From: Eucommia ulmoides
Taxonomy: Eukaryota > Streptophyta > Magnoliopsida > Garryales > Eucommiaceae
Length of the DNA: 64,000 bases
Direction of reading: 5' to 3'
NCBI GenBank assembly: GCA_016647705.1
Contig: CM028325.1
Location: forward strand, 28,872,474-28,936,473
Part shown: positions 5,443 through 48,193 of the stretch, one piece after another
Layout of the letters: each line of letters starts with the position of its first letter
Position numbering within the stretch: position 1 is the first letter of the stretch
Made by a program: the position numbers and the translations under genes
The notes under the pieces: model-generated
Seen by the model: the letters and a program-made list of their open reading frames with translations, nothing else
Told to the model about the DNA's origin: nothing
Databases searched by the model: none

Positions 5443-7807
5443 TGTTGATCCTAAGATTTTGATGGACAATTAAATGTTGATATTTTTTGTGGAACTAATG
5501 AGTTTATTGAGTGTTTAAGTGATAAAGTTCCATTGACGTTTTAATCATGAAGAAATTGTTGAAGAATGTTATGGATACAAGAGACTGACAAAAAGAAGAG
5601 CATTAAGAGACCGAAAATTTTGAAGAATCTAGGAGAAAATAACTTTGGTTAATTTGTGCTCTTAATGTATCCCAATTAAGATCACACACGACGCAAAAAT
5701 GATTTTATGATTATGTGTGTATTTTATAAGATCCTAATTAGTTAAACATATATGCTCTTGTGTAAAATTGAAAAAGAAATATTGATTTAAGAAATATTAG
5801 AAATTAAAGTTGATTTAAAGTGTCAATTAAGTTAACCGAGAAAAGAAATCGGTTAAAAGGGTAAAAATGTTGAAGAGTTGAGTTAAAAATTGATTAAAGA
5901 AGAAGGAGTTCCAGCAGGATCCATCAACCGACCTACATAGTTCGGTCAACTAATGAGAAGCAGCTAGGAAACGGTTTAGTCTCTAAATTGTTCGGTCGAC
6001 AACTAAGTCAACCTATGGCCAAAGGTGAAATGAATCGTTAGGTCGACAAACCAAAGTAGAGCGATCGACCTACCATAGCTGGATTTTGGCCTGGAGAACA
6101 CTTTGAATCGTTCGGTCGACAGACCAAGGAGTAGGGGACTACTGACGGGCTAGAAATTTAGGCTTGGGCTACAACTTAAATCGATCGGTCGACTTGTGGT
6201 GATTGGTCGGTTAACCGATGGTTAGGTTTCAGGTTTAGAGGATTTCGTAGATTTTTCCAAAACATGGCTATTACTAGCTGTTTTATGGTTAAGATCATAA
6301 AGATATCTTAGGGATTTGATGTTATTTGAGACATATAATTGATTTTTTGATATTCTTATAAATATGGTTCATATAATTTAATTATTTCTCAAATTAGTGC
6401 ATGTAATACTTTCTATTCTATCTAATTGAGTTTGAGAAAATGTTTGAGGGACTAAATTAAATATTTTAAAATATATAATTGAGTGAATTATACCAAGATT
6501 GAGTCATAATGATATAATGGGTCTATAAGTGTAATTAATTGTCAGGATATGTGAGAACTAGCCGTTGAAGGACTTGTTTCAATTCCATATAAATAGACCT
6601 GCGTTTTTAATCAAATTTCAAGAGTTATTCAGTTCCTGAATTTTCTGAGAGTAAACATTCTGAATTCATACTGAGTGTATTGTGAGATTATTCTTAAGAA
6701 AATTTGTTGTGGATTATTGCTGTTATCAATTTAGAGTTTCATTGTTATTCATTCGTTATTCATTTGGTGAATTCCTAGTGAGATCGTTCCAAGTCTTTAC
6801 TCTTAATTTATATTTGATGATATTATTTACTTGGAAGTTTGATCTTTGAAATCGTTTTTCTAAACTTTAAATTGCTTGAAAAGCATTTTAAAATAATTTC
6901 TTGTGAAAATCTGATTACGTGCTAAATTGTGTGCTACCTACTTTCATTAAAATAAAATTTTAAAATTCTCACTTTCTATCACTAGTATCGAGATATTAAT
7001 TGACTTCAAATTAATCTAGTGGTAGAAATTTCGAGTAAGAAAAAGCTTGTCAATTTTGTAATTATTGAGTTGTGTGCGGATTAGATACTATTGGGAGTAT
7101 CTAATCAGGGATAGTTGGTTTCAATCTCTCCCGATAAAGAAATTGAAGTTTGATATTTGTCTAGAGTACAAAAAGATTAGGTTACTCTTTCCTCATTGAA
7201 AAGAGCTTAGATGTGATTCTTTATGATTAGAATCTATTGTGACTGAATTGTAAATGTTTCATCCTTATATGGGAAGAGAATATTTAGAGTGATTGTGTGG
7301 TTTAATTCTTAACTTAAGGTATAAAAGAATTAATTTTGATCCTTAGCCTGTGAAATAATTAGGTTAGTCTTGAGCCTGGAAAAAAGAAAAGGTTATTCTT
7401 GAGCTTGGGAAAAAAAAAAAAAAAAGTTATTTCTAAGTCTGGAAAAAATAAATTGTAAATATTGATTCTGAACTTGTGAAAAGAATCATTGTGTAAATGT
7501 TTGGTTCCTACCTGTTTATATGAATCTTAGTGGTTTAGTGGGTGCAAATCTCTGTGAAGCTCGGAGGACTGGATTAGCTAAAAGTAGCTTGGTGCACCAG
7601 GAAATATCATGGTGTGCTGCATTGCTATTTTCTTTATTTCTTGTTGTTTGGGTGTGCACTTAGATTTAAACATTTATTCACCGCATTATAAAGATAATAA
7701 TTAAATTAGGATAAAATTAATTAATTGTATTTTCAAGTGTTAATTAGTTGATAACTTTTTTATTACTACCCAATTCACCCCCTCTTGGGTAACTTACTAG
7801 GCCAACA
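5443..7807 (+). repeat. 5' LTR of a Copia-type retrotransposon (family A)
   Basis: The LTR runs from TGTTGATCCTAAG to GGCCAACA, giving TGTTG/CAACA terminal inverted repeats, and is 2365 bp long. It is followed after two bases by a primer binding site for initiator tRNA-Met. It aligns with 30902-33021 (minus) and with 33811-42993 (plus, interrupted). Between 5921 and 6225 it carries a cluster of TCGGTCGAC/TCGGTCAAC words that also occurs in the other two copies. A run of As lies at about 7408-7425. No partner 3' LTR is present in the window. Confidence 0.9.
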
Positions 7808-12909: not shown

Positions 12910-13464
12910 ATGTCATCGTACAATTCACCGTGCGCGGCGTGCAAGTTCCTCCGGCGAAAGTGCACGCCTGAGTGCATTTTCGCTCCCTATTTCCCGCCAG
13001 ATCAACCGCAGAAGTTTGCAAGCGTCCACAAGGTGTTCGGGGCCAGCAACGTGGCCAAAATTTTGAACGAACTCGACGCGTCTCAACGCGACGACGCCGT
13101 GACTTCCCTCGCCTATGAGGCGCAGGAGCGGCTGCGTGACCCCGTGTACGGCTGCGTTAGCCTCATCTCCTATTTCCAGCAAAAGCTCAAGATGTACCAG
13201 TGCCAGCTGTACAACACCAAGAAAGAACTTTCCAACTACGTCGGTCCATCCGCCATGATGCCCATCATCCAACACCCCAGCTTGATCCAAACCCCATACG
13301 GCCTACAGATGGCCCATCCCGCTAGCGCCGCCCAACTAGTGATTCGAGACCAACAAACGAACCCGGGCCAGCTCCCGCAAATGATGGACGGTCACCAGCA
13401 CCAAGAGATGGTAAGGGCGTACGAGTATCAACAGCAGCTGCTGCAACATAGACAGCACAGGTAA
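12910..13464 (+). CDS. LBD36: LOB-domain transcription factor, LBD36/ASL1-like (N-terminal part, frameshifted)
   Basis: Encodes a plant-specific LATERAL ORGAN BOUNDARIES domain protein, a nuclear DNA-binding factor of the AS2/LBD class I group. The N-terminus shows the zinc-finger-like block with Cys8, Cys11, Cys18 and Cys22 (CX2CX6CX3C). The invariant FAPYFPPDQPQKFA and VHKVFGASNVAK (GAS block) segments follow, then DPVYGC and a coiled-coil-like heptad region to about residue 115. After the domain, the ELSNYVGPSAM and EMVRAYEYQQQ segments resemble LBD36 rather than AS2. The frame stops at TAA 13462-13464 after only 184 residues. Family-like C-terminal sequence continues in another frame from 13464, so a small indel near 13452-13463 has split the gene, or the assembly has an error there. 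The start is the first ATG and is preceded by a purine-rich leader. Confidence 0.9.
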   Translation: MSSYNSPCAACKFLRRKCTPECIFAPYFPPDQPQKFASVHKVFGASNVAKILNELDASQRDDAVTSLAYEAQERLRDPVYGCVSLISYFQQKLKMYQCQLYNTKKELSNYVGPSAMMPIIQHPSLIQTPYGLQMAHPASAAQLVIRDQQTNPGQLPQMMDGHQHQEMVRAYEYQQQLLQHRQHR

Positions 13465-19514: not shown

Positions 19515-22500
19515 TCACAGCTGACCTGCCGACGAAACTCGAGGTTTGCCCTTCACAGAATTCAAATGCTGAGACACAAAAAGAACACCCATCACAATTA
19601 TAAGACAACCCACCAACGTACTAAAAAACAGCGCCCCCGGCTGCCTTGTTTGAACAAAACCGTAGTACCCGTTTGAAGTCACCAGAATGATATCAGTCAG
19701 CCCGTCATTCGAGAAGTCGTCGGCAACCAATGCGTGGGTCGGAGGAGACGGAAGGTCTATGGTCGTCAATAGACTTCCCCCGGGAGATATCACCACTGCT
19801 TCTTGATCCCCTGCTGCCAGGATGAATTCCCGATCATCATAAACTCGTAGTGTGATTGGTTTTAGGGTGGGGACCACCGTGCCGGCTTCCATCATACCCG
19901 ATGGAGATGGGATGTTTGACCAGGTGGCACCAGTCAACAGCTGCCATTGCCAGATGGCATCGTGTCCATGCGTGCCAGGGGAATATGATGTGACCTAAAA
20001 GAGATGAGAACGTAAATGTTAGTTCACAGATCATGTTTCTGTTCCCAGTATTGGGAACAGTAGAGAAAAAAATCCGTCTGTTTTGCACCCAGATTTTTAG
20101 AACAAAATTCTGTTTTTGTTTCAAGTTTTTTGGGAATAATAAGTAATAACCAGATTGCACCTACTTGGAACAGGGACAAAAATATAGAAACAAAAAAAAA
20201 TGTTTTTGTTATGATCCGAGATTTTTAGAACAAATTTTGGAGATCAAAACAGAATGGTTCCCGAATTTCTTACTCCATTTTTTTATGGGAACAGTAACAC
20301 TAAACAAACGCAACCTAATTGTTATGACCTATGAGCCAAACAAGGAAACTTCTTGCAATAGATTATCAGAAATCAAAACAGATGACTCCGATGGGTTTGT
20401 AATGTAAACTAAGGCACCATTTTTAACAGTCTTTTTAAGCACTTAAATTTCACTTAAAACGTACTTTACATATATGTACATATATAAACATATGATTTTA
20501 AGTATTTATGTTAAGAAGTCAAGAATAGGCCGTTTTCTGCTTCTTCAATTTAAATATTTTAAAAGAATGATGGACCAACACCTATCCATCAATCTGGTCA
20601 ATTTTCTCAACCATCTATGATTTTTATTTTTATTTTTATTTTTGATTAAGCGATGTTTCAGGGGGATAACACTAACGTCATGTTTGGTTGGATGGAATCG
20701 AGGGCGGAATGGAATCGCATTCCGCCCTCGATTCCTATTCCATTGTTTGGTTCTCCAATGGAATCAATTTTGTGATTCCATTGGAATGAAATTGGATGGA
20801 ATGGGATTCCATTTGAGATGGGATGGAATGGGATTCCATCCCAATGGAATTAATATCTTAAATACATAATAGCCTTTCTAATTAAGGCCTTGAAAATTGA
20901 GAACAAAAACAGAAATTAGAGAACATAAATTGAAATTAGAAAACAGAAAGTTGAGAATATAAATAGAAAATTGAGAACAAAAAATTGAGAACAGAACTAG
21001 AAAATTGATAATAGAAACTGAAAATTGAAAATAGAAACAGAAAATGAAGAATATAAACCGAAAATTGAGAACAAAAACAGAAAATTAGAGAACAAGAAAT
21101 TGAGAACATAAACTAAAAATTGAGAACAAAAACATAAAATTAGATAACAGAAAATTGAGAACAAAAACTGAAAATTGAGAACATAAATTGAAAATTGAGA
21201 ATAAAAATATAAAATTAGAGAACGAAAAATTGAGAACGAAAATTGAAAATTGAGAACAAAAACATAAAATTAGATAATAGAAACAGAAAATTGAGAACAA
21301 AAACAGAAAATTGAGAACAAAACATAAAATTAGATAATAGAAAATTGAGAATGGAAACCGAAAATTGAGAATAAAAACAGAAAATTGAGGACAAAAACAA
21401 AAACTTAAGAATATAAACTGAAAATTGAGAACAAAAAATAAAAAATTAGAGAACGAAAAATTGAAAAAGGAAACTAAAAATTGAGAACAAAAACAGAAAT
21501 TAAAGAATAGAAACTGAAAATTGAGACAAAAATAGAAATTAGAAAACAAAAACTTAAAATTGAGTTGAATAGTGAAATATAATAAAATGAGGAAAGGAAT
21601 AGAATAGTGAAATATAATAAAATTTTATTATAATCAACCAAGAAGATAATGGAATAATAATTTTATAAGGGCAAAACGAAAATTTTACTATATTTCACTA
21701 TTCCATTCTTTCTTTCATTCCATACCAACCAAACAAGAGAATGGAATAGTGATTCCATTCACAATTCCATTCCATTCCTTCTCTCATTCCATTACTTCTT
21801 TCATTCCATTCCACCCTCATTCCATTCCGTCCAACCAAACATGCCGTTAAAATATCATCTACACTGACAAATACACACTTGATCTTCTAATTTAGTTGTA
21901 AAGTACCTTTTCTTTTTAATCAAATATGGGTAGGTATAAACTTCATACCTCGCCACGATTTGTTAGGAAGATAACGTCGCCGTGGCTTCCCTTACGATGC
22001 CGATGACCATCGCTTCTTGGGATAAGAATCGGCGTCGCTACCTCTAAAGAGATCGGATCAAAACTTCGACCAAAGCTTCTGGAAAATTCTCCATGTTGGA
22101 AATAATTAAAATGGGAGTGATGACATATAGAAGCATTGAAAAGCTGTTCTCGTACAGGCACACCGGATGTTGCAATAGCCCAACAAGGTCGGACCACTTC
22201 TGTTGATCCACTTACAGAAGTCCGCTCAGCACCATTTTTGCCAACAACCTACAAAAATGGAAAGTATTTATCTATTTCATCAGTCTAGACTCTACAAAAA
22301 TGAATTTCTATGGTTCTTCTATTGTGTGTAGTCATCGTACATGGTTCTCAGGCAAGGTTCATTGAGAGAGAGCAACATGATTGCATTATGTAACAGGTTG
22401 ACTATATTAGACACCATTGGTAACGGGTTTTTAAGTACTTTTTTTAATTTAAGCACAAAAACAAACAAACAAATAAATAAAGTAGCATTTGTTTTGCAAT

Positions 22501-36832: not shown

Positions 36833-38284
36833 ATATCTCTTAAAAACTGACTGTTGGAAGGCTTGATTTTATTCTATATATATAAACTTGTGAAAATTGA
36901 ATGAGAAATATTAAGAACTATCAGTTCCTAAGTTTTTCTAAGAGTTATCATTCTACTGAGATTATTCGAGAAAGATTTTGTGTTAAAGTTCTTAAGCTAA
37001 AACATTGTTGAATTGATGTTACCGATTTGTGCTATCTTGCGATCTTATTTTCAATCTTTGGAGTTTTTCTGGTGAGATCTTTTCAAATTATTGTTTTTAA
37101 TTTAGATTTCATATTATTGTTGATTGTTTGGATTTAAGATCATTAAAAAAATAATTTTCAAATTTAAGAGCATAGAAATCTTTTTAAAACAATTTCGTGT
37201 TATTATCTGATTACGTGTTATAATTTGTGTTACCCACACTTGTTAATAATTAGATATTAATTTATCTCACTTTAATTCTATCACGTGGTAACTTTTGGGA
37301 CATTAATCGAGTATAACTATTTTGAGGTAGTAAAAGCTTCTGGTGGGAAGAAATTCATAATTTTTTTGTATTTGTGAGTTTGAACGGATTAGACACAGTT
37401 GGGCCGGTGTTTAGTCAGGGTAGTTAAGTTTTAATATTTTTCGGTAAAAAAGATTAGGGTTTGATCATTTCCTAAGGTATAAAAAGGTTAGGTTATTCTT
37501 TTCCCTTAAAAAGAACTAGATTTTGATTATTCCTTAATTGAATTGAGTGAATTGTAAATGTTTCATCTTTATATGTGAAAATGTTACTTATGAGAGTTGT
37601 GAGGTTTGATCTTTAGCCTGTAAAAGGATTAGGTTTGATCTTTAGCAGATAAAAAGATTAGGTAGTGATTCTTTCTATAATAGAATTAGGTCAGTCTTTA
37701 ACTTGGTAAAAAAAATAAGGTTCTTCCTTAATTTCGAAAAAAGAAAATTGTAAGGATTTCGGTTCGAGCTGTTTACATTTTTTGTGCTAAAAAATGGTCA
37801 AATTATGCAAATGAGTCCCTTTTTATCTTTTTTACTAAAATAGGTCTAACCGGCCGTAAGATGGCCGGTTTCTATATATATATATTTTTTTCTTGGTAAA
37901 ACCAGCCTTAACAAGGTCGGTTTTACCATATAGGGGCTGCCACACTGGCAACCTCCCTCAAATCCCATGCCCCAGCCCCCCCATCCCCATGCCCCTTCAC
38001 CCCCATGCCCCCATCACCCCATCCCCTTTTTTATTTATTCATTTATATATATATTTAAATTATGATAATTTAAAATTTTATTTAATATTTCAAAATTAAA
38101 AATTAAATATAAATTATAATTATTTGGTAAATGTAATTAATTTTAAAAAATATTAACAAAACATTAAAAATGATATTTGTAATTTCCCATAAAAACGTAA
38201 TTTCTTTATGAAACCTAAGTTTTCATGGATGAAAGTTCCCACAATAATAGAAAAAATAGAAACTAAAATTAAACAAAGGGATAA

Positions 38285-38965
38285 AAATATAATTAATACT
38301 TTTTAATTGAACCCAAGATTTCAGGGATGAAAATGTAAAAAAAAATAATAATAATAATAATTAAAGGGGTGAAAATGTAATTAACATTTTTTAGTTGAAA
38401 CCCAAGATTTCAAGTGTGAAAATGCCAAAAAAATTAAAATTAAATATAGGAAAAAAATATAATTAATACTTTTTAGTTGAAACCCAAAATTTCAAAGATG
38501 AAAGTGCAAAAAAAAAATAAAAATCTAAAATTAAAAAAAAGGGGGCAGAAAATGTAATTAATACTTTTTAATTGAATCCCAAGGTTTGTATTATGAAAGT
38601 GCAAAAAAAATTAAAATTAAAATTAAATATAGGGGCAAAAATAAAATTAACTCTTTTTAGTTGAAATCCAAAATTTCAAAGATAAAAGTGCAAAAAAAAA
38701 AAAAAAATGAAAACTAAAATCGAAAAAGGGGCGAAAATGTAATTAATATTTTTTAATTGAATCCCAAGGTTTGTATTATGAAAGTGCCAAAAAAAATTAA
38801 AATTAAATCTAAGGGTGAAAATATAATTAACATTTTATAGTTGAAACCCAAAATTTCAAGTATGAAAGTGAAAAAAATAAAAAATTAAAAATTAAAAAAA
38901 AAAAGGCAAAAATGTAATTAACACTTTTTAATTGAATTCCAAGGTTTGTATTAAATATAAATTTT
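38285..38965 (+). repeat. Tandem array of ~90-bp units in the left arm
   Basis: Eight units begin near 38292, 38379, 38463, 38557, 38646, 38742, 38828 and 38919. Each has TTAATACTTTTTAATTGAA, CCCAAGRTTT, GATGAAAGTGCAAAAA and an A/T-rich linker ending GGGGCAAAAATGTA. Inverted copies occupy about 41800-42160 in the right arm. Confidence 0.85.
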
Positions 38966-39030
38966 AAAAAAAAAATTATAATAAACGACAACAGTCAACG
39001 AACGGCGACATGAATGAATCCAAATTTTTT

Positions 39031-40510
39031 TGTACATAAATTGTGTTCCTAAGAATACGTAATAAAACTTAAAAATATCACAACAGACTAGCGAATATTT
39101 TTTAAATAATCATCAAAATTGGTCGGATAAGTTGGTTCTGCATAGTTTTTTTGCAACTTTGAGTTAAAAAAAGATGGTTTATCCATACCCGAAATGAACT
39201 CAATTTTTTTTGTACATAATCTGGATTCCTAAGACTATGTAATAAAACTTAAAAATGTCAAAACGGATTGGTGAATTAATTTTAAATAATCGTCAAAGTT
39301 GGTCGGATGAGTTAGTTCTCCATTTTTTTTTGCCAACTTTGAATTAATCTATCCGTAACCGAAATGAACCCAATTTTTTTGTACATAAACTGTGTTCCTA
39401 AGACTATGTCAATACAATTTAAAAATGTCAGAACGGACTAGTGAATATTTTTTAAATAATCGTTAAAGTTGGTCGGACGAGTTGGTTCTGAAGTATTTTT
39501 TCGCAACTTTGAGTTAAAAAAAGATAGTCTATCCGTACCCGATATGAACTCAATTTTTTTGTACATAAAATGTGTTACTAAGAATACGTAATAAAACTTA
39601 AAAATGTCAAAATGGACTAGTGAACTAATTTTAAATAATCGTCAAAGTTGGTCAGATGAGCTGGTTTTGCAATTTTTTTTTTTTTTTTTTGCAACTTTGA
39701 GTTAACAAAATATGGTCTATCCGTAACCGAAATTAACCCAATTTTTTTGTACATAAATTGTATTACTAAGACTACATACTAAAACTTAAAAAAGTCAAAA
39801 CGGACTATCAAATGTTTTTTAAATAATCATTAAAGTTGGTAAGATGAGTTGGTTATGCAGTATTTTTTGGTAACTTTGAGTTAAAAAAAATGGTCTATCC
39901 GTACCCAAAATGAACCCAATTTTTTTGTAAATAATCTGGATTCCTAAGAGTACGTAATAAAACTTAATGTCAAAATGGACTAGTGAACTAATTTTAAATA
40001 ATCGTCAAAATTGGTCGGATGAGTTGATTCTGCAGTTTTTTTTTTTGCAACTTTGAGTTAACAAAAGATAGTCTATCCGTAGCCGAAATGAACCCAACTT
40101 TTTTGTACATAATATGGGTTTTTAAGAGTATTTAATAAAATTTAAAAATGTCAGAACGGACTAGTGAATTAATTTTAAATAATCATCAAATTTGGTCGAA
40201 TGAGTTGGTTCTGCAGTTTTTTTTTGCAACTTCGAGTTAACGAAATATGGTCTACCCATAACCGAAATGAATCCAATTTTTTTTGTACATAATCTGGGTT
40301 CTTAAAATTACGTAATAAAATTTAAAAATGTCAGAACGGACTGGTGAATAACTTTTAAATAATCGTCAAAATTGGTCGGATGAGTTGGTTCTGCAGTTTT
40401 TTTTTGCAACTTTAAGTTAACAAAAGATGGTCTATCCGTAACCGGAATAAACCCAATTTTTTTTGTACATAAACTGTGTTCTTAAGATTATGTAATAAAA
40501 CTTAAAAATT
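39031..40510 (+). repeat. Tandem array of ~180-bp units (nine) in the left arm
   Basis: Unit starts, taken at TGTACATAA or a close variant, are 39031, 39211, 39380, 39560, 39748, 39926, 40104, 40284 and 40464. Spacings are 180, 169, 180, 188, 178, 178, 180 and 180. Shared blocks include TAATAAAACTTAAAAATGTC, CGGACTAGTGAA, TTTTAAATAATCGTCAAAGT, TTGGTCGGATGAGTTGGTTC and TGGTCTATCCGTA. A partial inverted unit lies at 40505-40585 and a single inverted unit at 41645-41800. Confidence 0.92.
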
Positions 40511-40585
40511 TCAGAACCAACTCATTCAACCAACTTTGACGATTATTTAAAAGTTATTCACTAATCCGTTGTGAAATTTTTAAGT

Positions 40586-41644
40586 TTTATTATTTATTTT
40601 TATTTTATTTATTTTTTTAACATTTTTTTATAAATAATAACTATTTTTTTTATTTTTTTTTTGTAGATTTTTTTAACAACTTAGCGGTGGGAATGGTTCG
40701 GCTCGGTGACGGACATGACATCAACTCAGTTCGCTATTCGGTGGTTCGCCGCCGTCAAATAGGAAAAATTGTTAAAAAAAAAATTGACAATTTTTTTAAA
40801 CTATTTTTTTTTTTTTTTAAATAATAACTAACAAACGAAAATTTACTTAATAAATAATTTCTAAACACCTTTTAAATATTAGAATCCAACGAGTTAATGT
40901 CGTGGCTCTATTTGAATATATAGCCAAACATAAAAGGTTAATATTGTAATTTTTTATTTTGTTCTAGTTTTTTTTGCTCATCTTCTTCACCAATGTGGAT
41001 TTTTCTCTCTCTCGACTGTGAGTTTTACTGTGAGTTTTTAAAAATTATTAAAAATCGAAAAAAAAAATTAAGAAAGAAGGGGATGGAGATGGGATGTGGG
41101 GGATTCCGGCCACCCCCACCCCCACCCCCATCCAAAAAAAAAATATTACATATTATTTTTTTTAACATTTTTTTTTATAAATAATAACTAATTTTTTTTG
41201 TAGATTTTTTTAACAACCCGGCGGTGGGAACGGATCATTACGGATAGATGTTTGTCTTGTTTTTAGAGAGAGGAGAGATAGTATGCCTCAAACCCATTTT
41301 CTGCATCCATAAACGACTTAACCATTATGAGTTTTTGCACTTTTCACCCCTAAGTTTGACCACCTTTTCAGTTTGACACTTAGTCATTATTTCATCTTTA
41401 GCCCCATGAAGATTCGACACTTTCAAAGTGTTATTTCAAAGTGACGGAAATCATCTCGGCTAAACATGCAACTGATGACCAGAGATCATCTCTGCTAAAC
41501 ATGCAACTAATGACCAGGACCATAAAAAATCTGAGGACCATATTGTTTTGTCTGAAACTGATAAATTTTGAAGGTTCCATAGCTTTCTTTCAAAAGTTTA
41601 GAGAGAGAGACAGACAGGTTTTGAACGGACCATATTGTCCGTAA
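40586..41644. other. Loop region of the foldback element
   Basis: Spacer between the arms. A segment with ATAAATAATAACTA and TGTAGATTTTTTTAACAAC occurs at 40629-40682 and again at 41178-41217, each followed by GCGGTGGGAA. No gene is supported; 40993-41184 and 41441-41644 are short unsupported frames. Confidence 0.6.
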
Positions 41645-43429
41645 TTACGTAACCTTAGGAACCCAGTTTACGTACAAAAAAATTGGGTTTATTTCGGTTA
41701 CAGATAGACCGTCTTTTATTTATTGAAAGTTGCAAAAAAACAACATCATCATTGAAACAACTCATCCGACCAATTTTGACGATTATTTAAAAGTTTCAAC
41801 TAAAAAGTGAATTATATTTTTGCCCCTATATTTAATTTTAATTTTTTTGGCACTTTCATAATACAAATCTTGGGATTCAATTAAAAAGTATTAATTACAT
41901 TTTTGCCCCCTTTTTTTTTTATTTTAGTTTTTTTTTTTTTTTTTTTTTGAACTTTCATCTTTGAAATTTTGGGTTTCAACTAAAAAGTGTTAATTATATT
42001 TTTCCCCTATATTTAATTTTAATTTTTTTTTGGCACTTTCATACTTGAAATCTTGGGTTTCAACTAAACAATGTTAATTACATTTTCTCCCCTTTAATTA
42101 ATTTTTTTTTTACATTTTCATCCCTGAAACCTTGGGTTCAATTAAAAAGTATTAATTATATTTTTATTCCTTTGTTTAATTTTAGTTTCTATTTTTTCTA
42201 TAATTGTGGGCACTTTCGTCCATGAAAACTTAAGTTTCATAAAGAAATTGCGTTTTTATGAAAAATTACAAATATCATTTTTAATGTTTTATTAATATTT
42301 TTTAAAATTAATTACATTTACCAAATAATTATAATTTATATTTAATTTTTAATTTTGAAATATTAAATAAATTTTTAAATTATAATAATTTAATATATAT
42401 ATATAATAAATAAAAAAGGGGATGGGGCATGGGGGATAAGGGCATTGGGGTGAGGGGGCATGGGGATGAGAGGGCTAGGGCATGGGATTGTGGGGGAAGG
42501 GGGGCTGCCAGCCCCCATATGGTAAAACCAGCCATAACAAGGCCGGTTTTACTAAGAAAAAAAAATATAGAAACCGGCCATCTTATGGCCGATTAGACCT
42601 ATTTTAGTAAAAAAGATAAAAAGGGACCCATTTGAGTAATTTGACCATTTTTTAGCACCAAAAATGTAAACAGCTCATTTTGGTTCCTACCTGGTAAAGG
42701 GATCAAGAGATTAGTGGTTGCGAATCTCCGTGGAGCTCGGGGGACTGGATTAGACAAGGCTAGTTTGCTAAATCAAGATATATCTTAGTGTGTTGTTTTA
42801 TTATTTTTATCATATTCTGTTTAAGTGTGCACTTAGAATATAAACATTTATCCGTTTTGTAACGAAAATAATAATTGATTTAAGATAAAATGATTATTTA
42901 ATAAATTAAGTGTTAAAAATTTTAATTATTTAAAATTTGAATAACTAACCAATTCACCCCACCCCCCCTCTTGGGTAGCTTATTGAGCCAATAATTTGAA
43001 ATGGGCGAAGTTTTTGATCAAGAAAGAAAGAGTCATGTTTATTCTCCATGTTTACATGAAACGAAAAAATTCTTACCTTTATTCACTTGGGTTGTTACAA
43101 AATTTGATTCTTAAATCATTAGGATAATTGAAATTTTCATATAATATTTTTTTAATTCATAATTTTGAGTATTTCTAGACGTTTATTTATTTTTGTCTCC
43201 GTGCTTATGACATATTTCTTTTAGTGTTTATTTTTTCACGTTGATAAGTAGGCATGACAATGGACTAGATTTAGTTTGGTTTCAATAAAAAACAGAATCA
43301 AAACCTTTAAAAAATATCAAACTCAAAACTGAATTGTATCACAAATCCTTATTCCCTTTCTTTTAAAAAAATATATTTTGTCTAATATAATTACTAGAAA
43401 TAGATGTTTATAAAAATTACTAACAATAA

Positions 43430-46717: not shown

Positions 46718-48193
46718 TTAGTTGTTATTGTGTGCTAAGTTTTGACTTCATCTAGGCCATTACCCGATGATGAGTCTGTCGCCTGATTGTTTATTGAGGT
46801 CGAGTGTAAAGTTCATTCATGTGTGTTCTGTGTGCTTGACGTATCGTTTTAGTAAAAGTTATTGTAGATCCTAAATGAACGAGCACGTAAACTCAATGTA
46901 TAACTATCCAATTGATTTGAAAACGATTATCCGTTAGCCAAGTTCATGACAATAGGGATTTTAGAATTTGATTTGGGAAAAATTCGAGATGAAATCCTAG
47001 GCAAGGTAGTTCGGGAGATATGATTTAGGCATTCATTTTTATCGCTTGAGCCTTTGAAGCTTACCATGCTAAATGTTTATCCCTCGTTACCCTGTCAAAG
47101 CCTAAATGTCATTTCAATTCTGAACACTTAACTAATACCATGGCCAATCGAACTTTTTCCAAGCCTATATCGCTAAACTGAAAGCACAATTTGAGTGAAT
47201 CAAGTTAGCAGTTGCAAATGCTACTTGAAGTGAGCGGTTGGGTTTAGGACGAACTTTTAATTGGTTCAGTATTTGAGTACTCACTTGTCGTTTTTCTTTC
47301 GTTTTAACCACACTCGTGAAATTCTAATAATCGAATGAGTTTGGGTGTGGTAAGTTAAAAGAAAAAAAAAACTTATGTAAATATCGTTAAATTCTTTTTC
47401 TTTTGACAAGTGAGTGTGTCAGTCTTAAATGATTATTCAGGATTGTTTCCAATTTATCTATGGGGTTTAGAGTGTAAGAGTACCAAGCTTATGCCTCGGG
47501 TATCGTCAAGTTTCTATTCCGAAATACCCTTGGCCAAATATTTCTAAAATCGAACCAAGTCTTATTGATCTTTATGAACTACTTAGTGGATAATAGAACC
47601 CATGTTAGGCTTATGGATTCCCTATACCTTGTTGGTTTTAGTTATGAGCTTTATTGAGGGATAATCCTATTTGATCGACGGATAGTTGTATAATTGAGTT
47701 TTATCATACACACACTTTGACAATATTTCGAAATACCCTTGGCCAAATATTCCTAAAATCGAACCAAGTCTTATTGATCTTTATGAACTACTTAGTGGAG
47801 AATAGAACTCATGTCAGGCTTATGGATTCCCTATATCTTGTTGGTTTTAGTCATGGGCTTTATTGAGGGATAATCTTATCTGATCGACGGATAGTTGTAT
47901 AATTGAGTTTTATCACACACACACTTTGACAAGATCTTGAATGGTGCTTACTATTATTGAACGTTGAAATTCTAGAATACCACATGGTGTGTGTTATTCT
48001 TAAACTTGATAGGATTAGGGGGGTCAATGAAGGGAAAATCGTTTGGCCGGTAGATGATATTCAAAACTTGCACATTATTATTTTTAGTGTTTTTCATTTT
48101 TAGTTTTTAATTTTGTAATTAGTTGTTATATTTTTCTTGTATTATGTGGGTGTTTCGCTCGATGACTAGAAAAATTCCAAGTTTGGGGGTATT
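46718..48193 (+). other. 3' non-coding interior of the gag-only element
   Basis: No reading frame of note. It ends in the purine-rich tract before the 3' LTR and contains the 209-bp tandem duplication annotated separately. Confidence 0.7.
47521..47937 (+). repeat. 209-bp tandem duplication inside the retroelement
   Basis: Two consecutive copies begin GAAATACCCTTGGCCAAATA at 47521 and 47730 and are more than 95 percent identical by eye, pointing to a young duplication. Confidence 0.92.

Follow-up and report, generated by a model that had tools for sequence, protein, structure and literature searches.

A foldback Mutator-like element of Eucommia ulmoides and a relative on the same contig that may show the birth of satellite DNA inside a jumping gene

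The window element and its family

The window analysed here (64,000 nucleotides of Eucommia ulmoides DNA, C1:28872474-28936473 of a 947-Mb assembly) contains a foldback element of 4.9 kb at 37766-42676, which lies between direct-repeat copies and belongs to a family of Mutator-like elements (MULEs); another member, ~10 Mb away on the same contig, carries 165 tandem units in one arm. An initial annotation of the window had the coordinates, the ends and the 10-bp target site duplication of the foldback element all correct, the two copies of the duplication being identical at 9 of 10 positions (computed). Its features, in window coordinates, are these (TRF, Tandem Repeats Finder).

37756-37765, no strand: left copy of the 10-bp target site duplication, ATTTCGGTTC
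37766-38204, plus strand: left MULE terminal domain, with the GAGCTGTTTACATT end, a GC-rich and then an AT-rich stretch, up to the first 90-bp unit
38205-38953, plus strand: left 90-bp array, 8 units (profile matches over 38205-38919, TRF to 38953)
39020-40522, plus strand: left 180-bp array, 8 full units and 70 bp (8.3 units), all 8 of subtype B
40504-40522: head-to-head junction of the two 180-type arrays, at the shared short word CAGAAC and without spacer
40505-40595, minus strand: innermost right-arm 180-unit fragment, unit positions 38-128 by profile
40596-41643, no strand: middle segment of 1.05 kb, within a right-arm 180 unit
41644-41795, minus strand: outer right-arm 180-unit fragments, unit positions 78-180 and 1-44, subtype A by profile score
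41810-42243, minus strand: right 90-bp array, 4 units by profile (to 42147) and an implied fifth
42244-42676, minus strand: right MULE terminal domain, ending AATGTAAACAGCTC
42677-42686, no strand: right copy of the 10-bp target site duplication, ATTTTGGTTC

Comparison of the two arms revealed inverted repeats of 123 bp at 91% at the extreme ends and of 291 bp at 96% further inward, and the outer 535 bp of the arms match each other at 88%, with 180-type units inside 90-type units on both sides, just as the annotation had described arms sharing an outer ~500 bp and mirrored repeat types. Its unit counts were right for the 8 left units of 90 bp and close for the others: the left 180-bp array has 8.3 units where 9 were claimed, and the right 90-bp array has 4-5 where about 5 were claimed, the fifth and outermost being implied by inverted-repeat pairing and falling under the profile cut-off. 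The "single" right-arm 180 unit is instead ~1.35 units split in two pieces (41644-41795 and 40505-40595), and the middle segment sits between pieces of one such unit, not between the arms. A 180-bp dimer fits the "90-bp" array better than the monomer does (81% versus 71% matches, TRF). The window copy is a foldback element: its terminal inverted repeats (TIRs) are long and composite, hold tandem repeats inside, and leave little or no unique loop between them. Its 180-bp array measures 1.5 kb, below the satellite scale of tens of kilobases. Local alignments of the 180- and 90-bp units to the terminal domain were no better than the best shuffles, giving no sign that either unit is a copy of that domain. 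No MULE transposase was found in the window element itself, and it also lacks the RDR6 fragment carried by relatives that might have marked it as a Pack-MULE, other gene fragments in the middle segment not having been searched for.

Searching the genome with the outer 535 bp (37766-38300) gave at least 74 matches, around which 20 loci (designated L below) were retrieved and more added later; in our genome DNA searches the best 40 candidates were scored, of 327 for the outer 535 bp, 1571, 212 for the middle segment, and 92. Other copies with the same ends, whose absence the initial annotation had named as grounds for refuting it, are thus present. Family copies have TIRs in common, and relatives carry MULE transposase, MuDR DNA-binding and SWIM domains (PF10551, PF03108, PF04434), PF24572, and the plant mobile domain PF10536, a kind of domain that MULEs are reported to have captured (PMC5418596). 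Nine of ten end pairs tested are flanked by direct repeats of 9-10 bp matching at 7 of 9 positions or better, five of these pairs having been read by eye: the computed values are 9/10 for the window, 10/10 for L024, 8/10 for L015 and 9/10 for the giant relative, and those read by eye are 9/10 on C95, 9/9 on C62, 9/9 on C2, 8/9 on C8 and 7/9 on C3. In L022, whose right end is cut, the same 10-bp word stands on either side. Taken with the transposase-bearing relatives of the same ends, these duplications uphold the annotated Mutator-like insertion and support a family of the MULE superfamily, of which the window copy is a non-autonomous foldback derivative. Larger members, most of them read only in part, span 13-19 kb end to end.

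C3:41968305-41983485: larger member
C62:1501422-1518858: larger member
C2:25501811-25515170: larger member
C8:14576240-14594880: larger member, with transposase, plant mobile domain and RDR6 sequence together
C95:104310-119188: larger member

The arrays recur across the family in one arrangement, 180-type units inside 90-type units and facing each other in two-arm loci, with a less regular order in the nested or truncated loci L020, L023 and L029. Clustering of 279 full 180-type units, with the giant left array represented by 28 of its 163 full units, revealed two subtypes, A (111 units, ~187 bp) and B (165 units, ~180 bp), with 3 others; mean identities are 0.861 for A-A, 0.845 for B-B and 0.792 for A-B. 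Among the 24 arrays holding 3 or more full units, 9 contain both subtypes, 8 of them through a single minority unit. One A arm and one B arm make up L012, L021, L024 (where one side has a single full unit), the giant element and the window copy (called by profile score), and L011 has one A array and one mixed array, the latter lying inside a longer element. We considered homogenisation from arm to arm and rejected it, as units are no more alike between the two arrays of a locus (0.822) than between loci (0.820), with 0.840-0.859 within an array; the best partner among 236 units lies in the same array for 63, in the other array of the same locus for 3 and elsewhere for 170.

A fragment of RDR6 (the RNA-binding domain, PF24572) was found at 27 loci, with 60 of 60 candidates scored, among them C6:2562698, L010, L013, L017, L021, L029, L031 and L036. 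One of the 27 is a 947-aa frame resembling the host gene, and 21 of the remaining 26 lie, by our own count, within 0.9 kb of a 180-type array. Across 15 of the 26 copies (105 pairs), mean nonsynonymous over mean synonymous divergence (dN/dS) from copy to copy is 0.88, and 14 of the 15 contain stops, so there is no sign of a kept protein and selection on the captured fragment was set aside. From the host-like gene the same 15 copies are separated by a dS of 0.04-0.15. Comparison of the fragment with the PDB gave no match.

A 165-unit arm on the same contig

The giant element (C1:38961489-39007235, 45,747 bp) is flanked by TCCTAGGCAT / TTCTAGGCAT, a target duplication of 9 in 10, and has one family end per side and no other within its 45.7 kb. 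Its left array starts 116 bp from the end and runs to 38992234, comprising 165 units (163 full) of ~187 bp over 30.6 kb with no gap above 60 bp; the 90-bp unit was not found in this left arm. After the array come transposase, plant mobile domain and RDR6 sequence, followed by a 17-unit array and the right end. The same repeat is found both in element arms and in an amplified array.

Alignment of this array with itself, unit by unit, revealed duplicated blocks: 31 units recur at a lag of 53 (97.8% identity), 24 units at a lag of 79 (97.7%) and 13 units at a lag of 7 (99.5%), and on plain DNA the same blocks measure 5.8 kb at 97.5%, 4.5 kb at 97.6% and 2.4 kb at 99.5%, against which two off-block controls reach 85.5-87.4% in the rows displayed. 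Because the blocks span 2.5% to 0.5% divergence, they point to stepwise growth. Unequal exchange acting step by step would be expected to produce such a pattern. The annotated proposal of satellite-like arrays seeded and enlarged by a transposon arm is thus supported, by this copy and not by the one in the window.

It is unlikely that the array had grown before insertion and that a ~45-kb element then moved whole. Ends and target duplication around the array fit either order, but block divergence running from 2.5% down to 0.5% is that of stepwise growth, and the RDR6 fragments, with the synonymous divergence given above, are older than the blocks. Growth mostly in place is the more probable.

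A unit of 180 bp is a size common among centromeric repeats. A MULE might have captured a satellite that already existed in the genome, its arrays coming from elsewhere. A search with one unit word revealed 1,824 sites (939+885; reversed control, 0) with a dense run on C1, a count that is complete for that word at up to 2 mismatches, with 100 places listed; the word picks up 189 of 236 full units and, in the giant array, 112 of 163. An exact A-type 42-mer has 77 matches listed, 17 of them in the giant array and elsewhere no more than 2 close together, and an exact B-type 35-mer has 38 matches with no more than 4 together. Among these exact-word matches of the whole assembly no second long array appeared, though diverged satellites would escape such words. 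The longest other arrays read have ~25-26 units (26 in L029, 25 in L030), and in L029 no outer arm could be recognised to the left of the array, which is what a captured satellite might look like. Arrays without arms that predate the element, the other ground for refutation in the initial annotation, were not found as such, L029 being the nearest case. With no long array outside the giant element in the exact-word scans, within their reach as just stated, capture seems quite improbable and an origin of the arrays within the family is preferred.

As a side observation, the L030 array of 25 units, next to a diverged family end, is one of two opposite 180-type arrays ~50 kb apart (C8:51997346-52052268), possibly one further very large member, possibly two distinct ones.

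Long tandem arrays are generally error-prone in assembly, and the giant array is known from the assembly, so false joins could have produced the 30.6-kb array or its block duplications. Its pieces contain no N, however, the array lies inside a 43-Mb contig between flanks with a 9/10 duplication of 10 bp, and the duplicate blocks are 0.5-2.5% apart, unlike copied sequence. Misassembly is accordingly a very doubtful explanation.

How arrays behave elsewhere can be seen in L010 and L017 (both C62), which are one insertion in a duplicated locus, with flanks at 94% over 302 bp and elements at 92.8% over 6 kb. Their arrays have 17 and 16 units, of which 16 pair in order, the search tool BLAST and the unit alignment pointing to different units of L010 as the surplus one. 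Next to this near-stable array the giant arm looks like an exception. L019 and L025 (C12 and C16) likewise share an insertion flank, at 90.6% over 318 bp; the two pairs are duplicated segments ~6-9% diverged and may reflect segmental or genome duplication.

The two arms of the window copy

The initial annotation held that the left arm of the window copy has expanded, a claim that does not survive comparison with other insertions. We compared the left 180-bp array with 8 arrays that share its kind of outer boundary and can be matched to it at 3 positions or more, the pairs for register tests having been chosen after a scan of 32 arrays. Pooled over the 8 arrays, the order of the window units in register beats all but 2 of 20,000 reorderings. 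The closest array is that of L024, which at 8.4 units is as long as the window's and which matches it at 0.900 over 8 units, compared with 0.839-0.870 at other offsets and with 0 of 10,000 reorderings doing as well; L014 follows with 0.890 over 7 units (2 of 10,000), and the in-register fits of L013, L012 and L031 are equalled or bettered by 63, 88 and 395 of 10,000, respectively. L024 is a separate insertion, with its own 10/10 duplication and a left flank, the flank compared, that matches neither window flank.

Some results of the same comparison pull the other way. When all 183 diagonals of the 32 arrays were tested together, L021 shifted by 2 units came first (38 of 2,000 reorderings); without L024, L014 and L012 the five arrays left fit less well in register (722 of 20,000) and do better when shifted by two units; for only 6 of the 8 window units is the best match in L024 the unit at the corresponding place; and the window's group differs from L010, L017 and L021 by about two outer units. 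The weaker five-array fit and the better two-unit shift suggest that two outer units were gained or lost between family groups, a state the window has in common with L024. As its units keep the register seen in independent insertions, the left array has not expanded in this copy and is inherited.

The changed arm of the window copy is the right one, which is short because two 180-type arrays were fused head to head. This fusion is common to the window and L033, a second insertion, whose flank at its readable end does not match the window's. The middle segment sits in the same unit in L026, where there is no fusion, and its borders show a unit overlap of 4-7 bp at the two sides in the window, L026 and L033. 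Since L026 has the middle piece without fusion and L033 has both, the order of events reads as arrays, middle piece, fusion, dispersal. That the window's left arm instead expanded its 90- and 180-bp arrays from a short, right-like ancestor is highly improbable: the strong left/right difference in unit number, with arms also unequal in L012, L015, L017, L021, L022 and L024, would suit it, but the left unit order is common to other insertions' arrays, one of which (L024) is equally long and differs in left flank and target duplication, so that it and the window copy are unlikely to be one duplicated insertion, and the shortness of the right arm accompanies the fusion common to L033.

The middle segment (40596-41643) has internal direct repeats at 40609-40699 and 41156-41236, and its pieces have at least 77 matches elsewhere in the genome. 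The target site of the window copy (37602-37760 and 42684-42750) is itself a repeat with a 29-bp AGGTTTGATCTTTAGC-like unit, of which similar stretches adjoin L033, and a similar-looking array lies in the window at 7361-7452. The window flanks resemble the stretches by L033 (78-80% over 66-134 bp), and as the target itself is a repeat, these were not used as a clean empty site. Two further tandem arrays of the window are a AAAATTGAGAACAAAAACAG-type array at 20892-21564 and, at 47515-47932, a 209-bp unit in two copies at 94%. An LBD gene at 12910-13464 of the window has a best-scoring relative at 61% identity and, among the 120 matches listed, none above 77%, which places the genome no more closely than eudicot-like.

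Proposed history and bearing on satellite origins

A stepwise origin of the window copy, together with a giant arm grown by block duplication, is as a whole the best explanation of these observations, and we hold it with good confidence. The arms of the larger members have a terminal domain, followed in most cases by a 90-bp array and further inward by a 180/187-bp array, and some of these members hold transposase, plant-mobile-domain and RDR6-fragment sequence between the arms. In the line of the window copy a 1.05-kb segment would have entered the A arm, an internal loss would next have joined the A arm head to head with the B arm, and the resulting copy would have moved, probably by the family transposase acting in trans on its ends. 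Array length would shift in place through exchange between units, presumably unequal, and in one insertion repeated block duplication would have carried an arm to 165 units with the transposon ends kept, most of this growth probably following the insertion. Of all this, the anatomy, the family, the unit order and fusion common to separate insertions, the giant arm and its block duplications are observed directly.

Several observations weigh against parts of this history. Among the ten end pairs tested L021 has no target duplication, and in L017 the arms are B/B, so the pairing of an A with a B arm is not universal in two-arm elements. The L010 and L017 copies differ by ~0.6 kb in a stretch outside the array, L029 has its 26 units without a recognised left outer arm, and none of the loci read showed an intact transposase frame. 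The frames being interrupted, present activity is not claimed. An array of satellite size, that is, of tens of kilobases, occurs at one locus, a single case. The giant units have a mutual mean of 0.870, compared with 0.880 between a 28-unit sample of them and the units of L009, and being no closer to each other than to L009 they suggest an array not homogenised as a whole. The interpretation given in the initial annotation is, overall, partly supported.

Plant foldback MULE-like elements with large composite TIRs are known from Arabidopsis as FARE, to which the present family is likened by description. The nearest precedent is Tetris of Drosophila virilis, a foldback element with 8-10 bp duplications whose TIRs hold tandem repeats of ~220 bp that also form longer, satellite-like arrays, with unit number varying among alleles and arrays reaching 66 copies, possibly disrupting the element; no transposase-bearing copy was found (PMC4079207). 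Here, by comparison, the host is a plant, relatives bear transposase, the units are of two subtypes, and 165 of them lie between both ends and a target duplication. The Tm1 Mutator/Foldback elements of root-knot nematodes also have composite TIRs, a variable number of internal repeats and 8-10 bp duplications, with classes ranging from transposase-bearing to non-autonomous (PMC3169594), but their internal repeat is ~14 bp as against 90/180 bp here, and "satellite" occurs 0 times in the main text. Plant MULEs with multiple long TIRs, and Pack-MULEs, have tandem terminal sequence and captured gene fragments (PMC3310237); in those, whole TIRs are doubled, whereas here the 90- and 180-bp units are separate and the long arrays internal to the terminal domain. 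In baobab, Mutator elements have been argued from their position to contribute possibly to plant centromere formation (PMC11470940), whereas the array described here is seen inside an element. No plant MULE with an arm at satellite scale is described in the literature titles and abstract openings covered, most subscription journals being outside that coverage. What is added over these precedents is a plant intermediate with both ends, a target duplication and readable growth in a transposase-bearing family.

The origin of satellites is an old question, and their beginnings are hard to see because the first steps are usually erased. In the relative on the same contig we may be looking at the birth of satellite DNA inside a jumping gene. 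One genome here holds a series, from short arrays sharing their order through a near-stable duplicated insertion to a 30-kb arm in which growth can be followed step by step, each block between the two transposon ends having a measured divergence. Comparing alleles or related species at one known site makes the route testable. It seems reasonably probable, if some way from assured, that a MULE insertion is here turning into a satellite locus with its ends kept, and that the dozens of dispersed short arrays of the family could seed more satellites.

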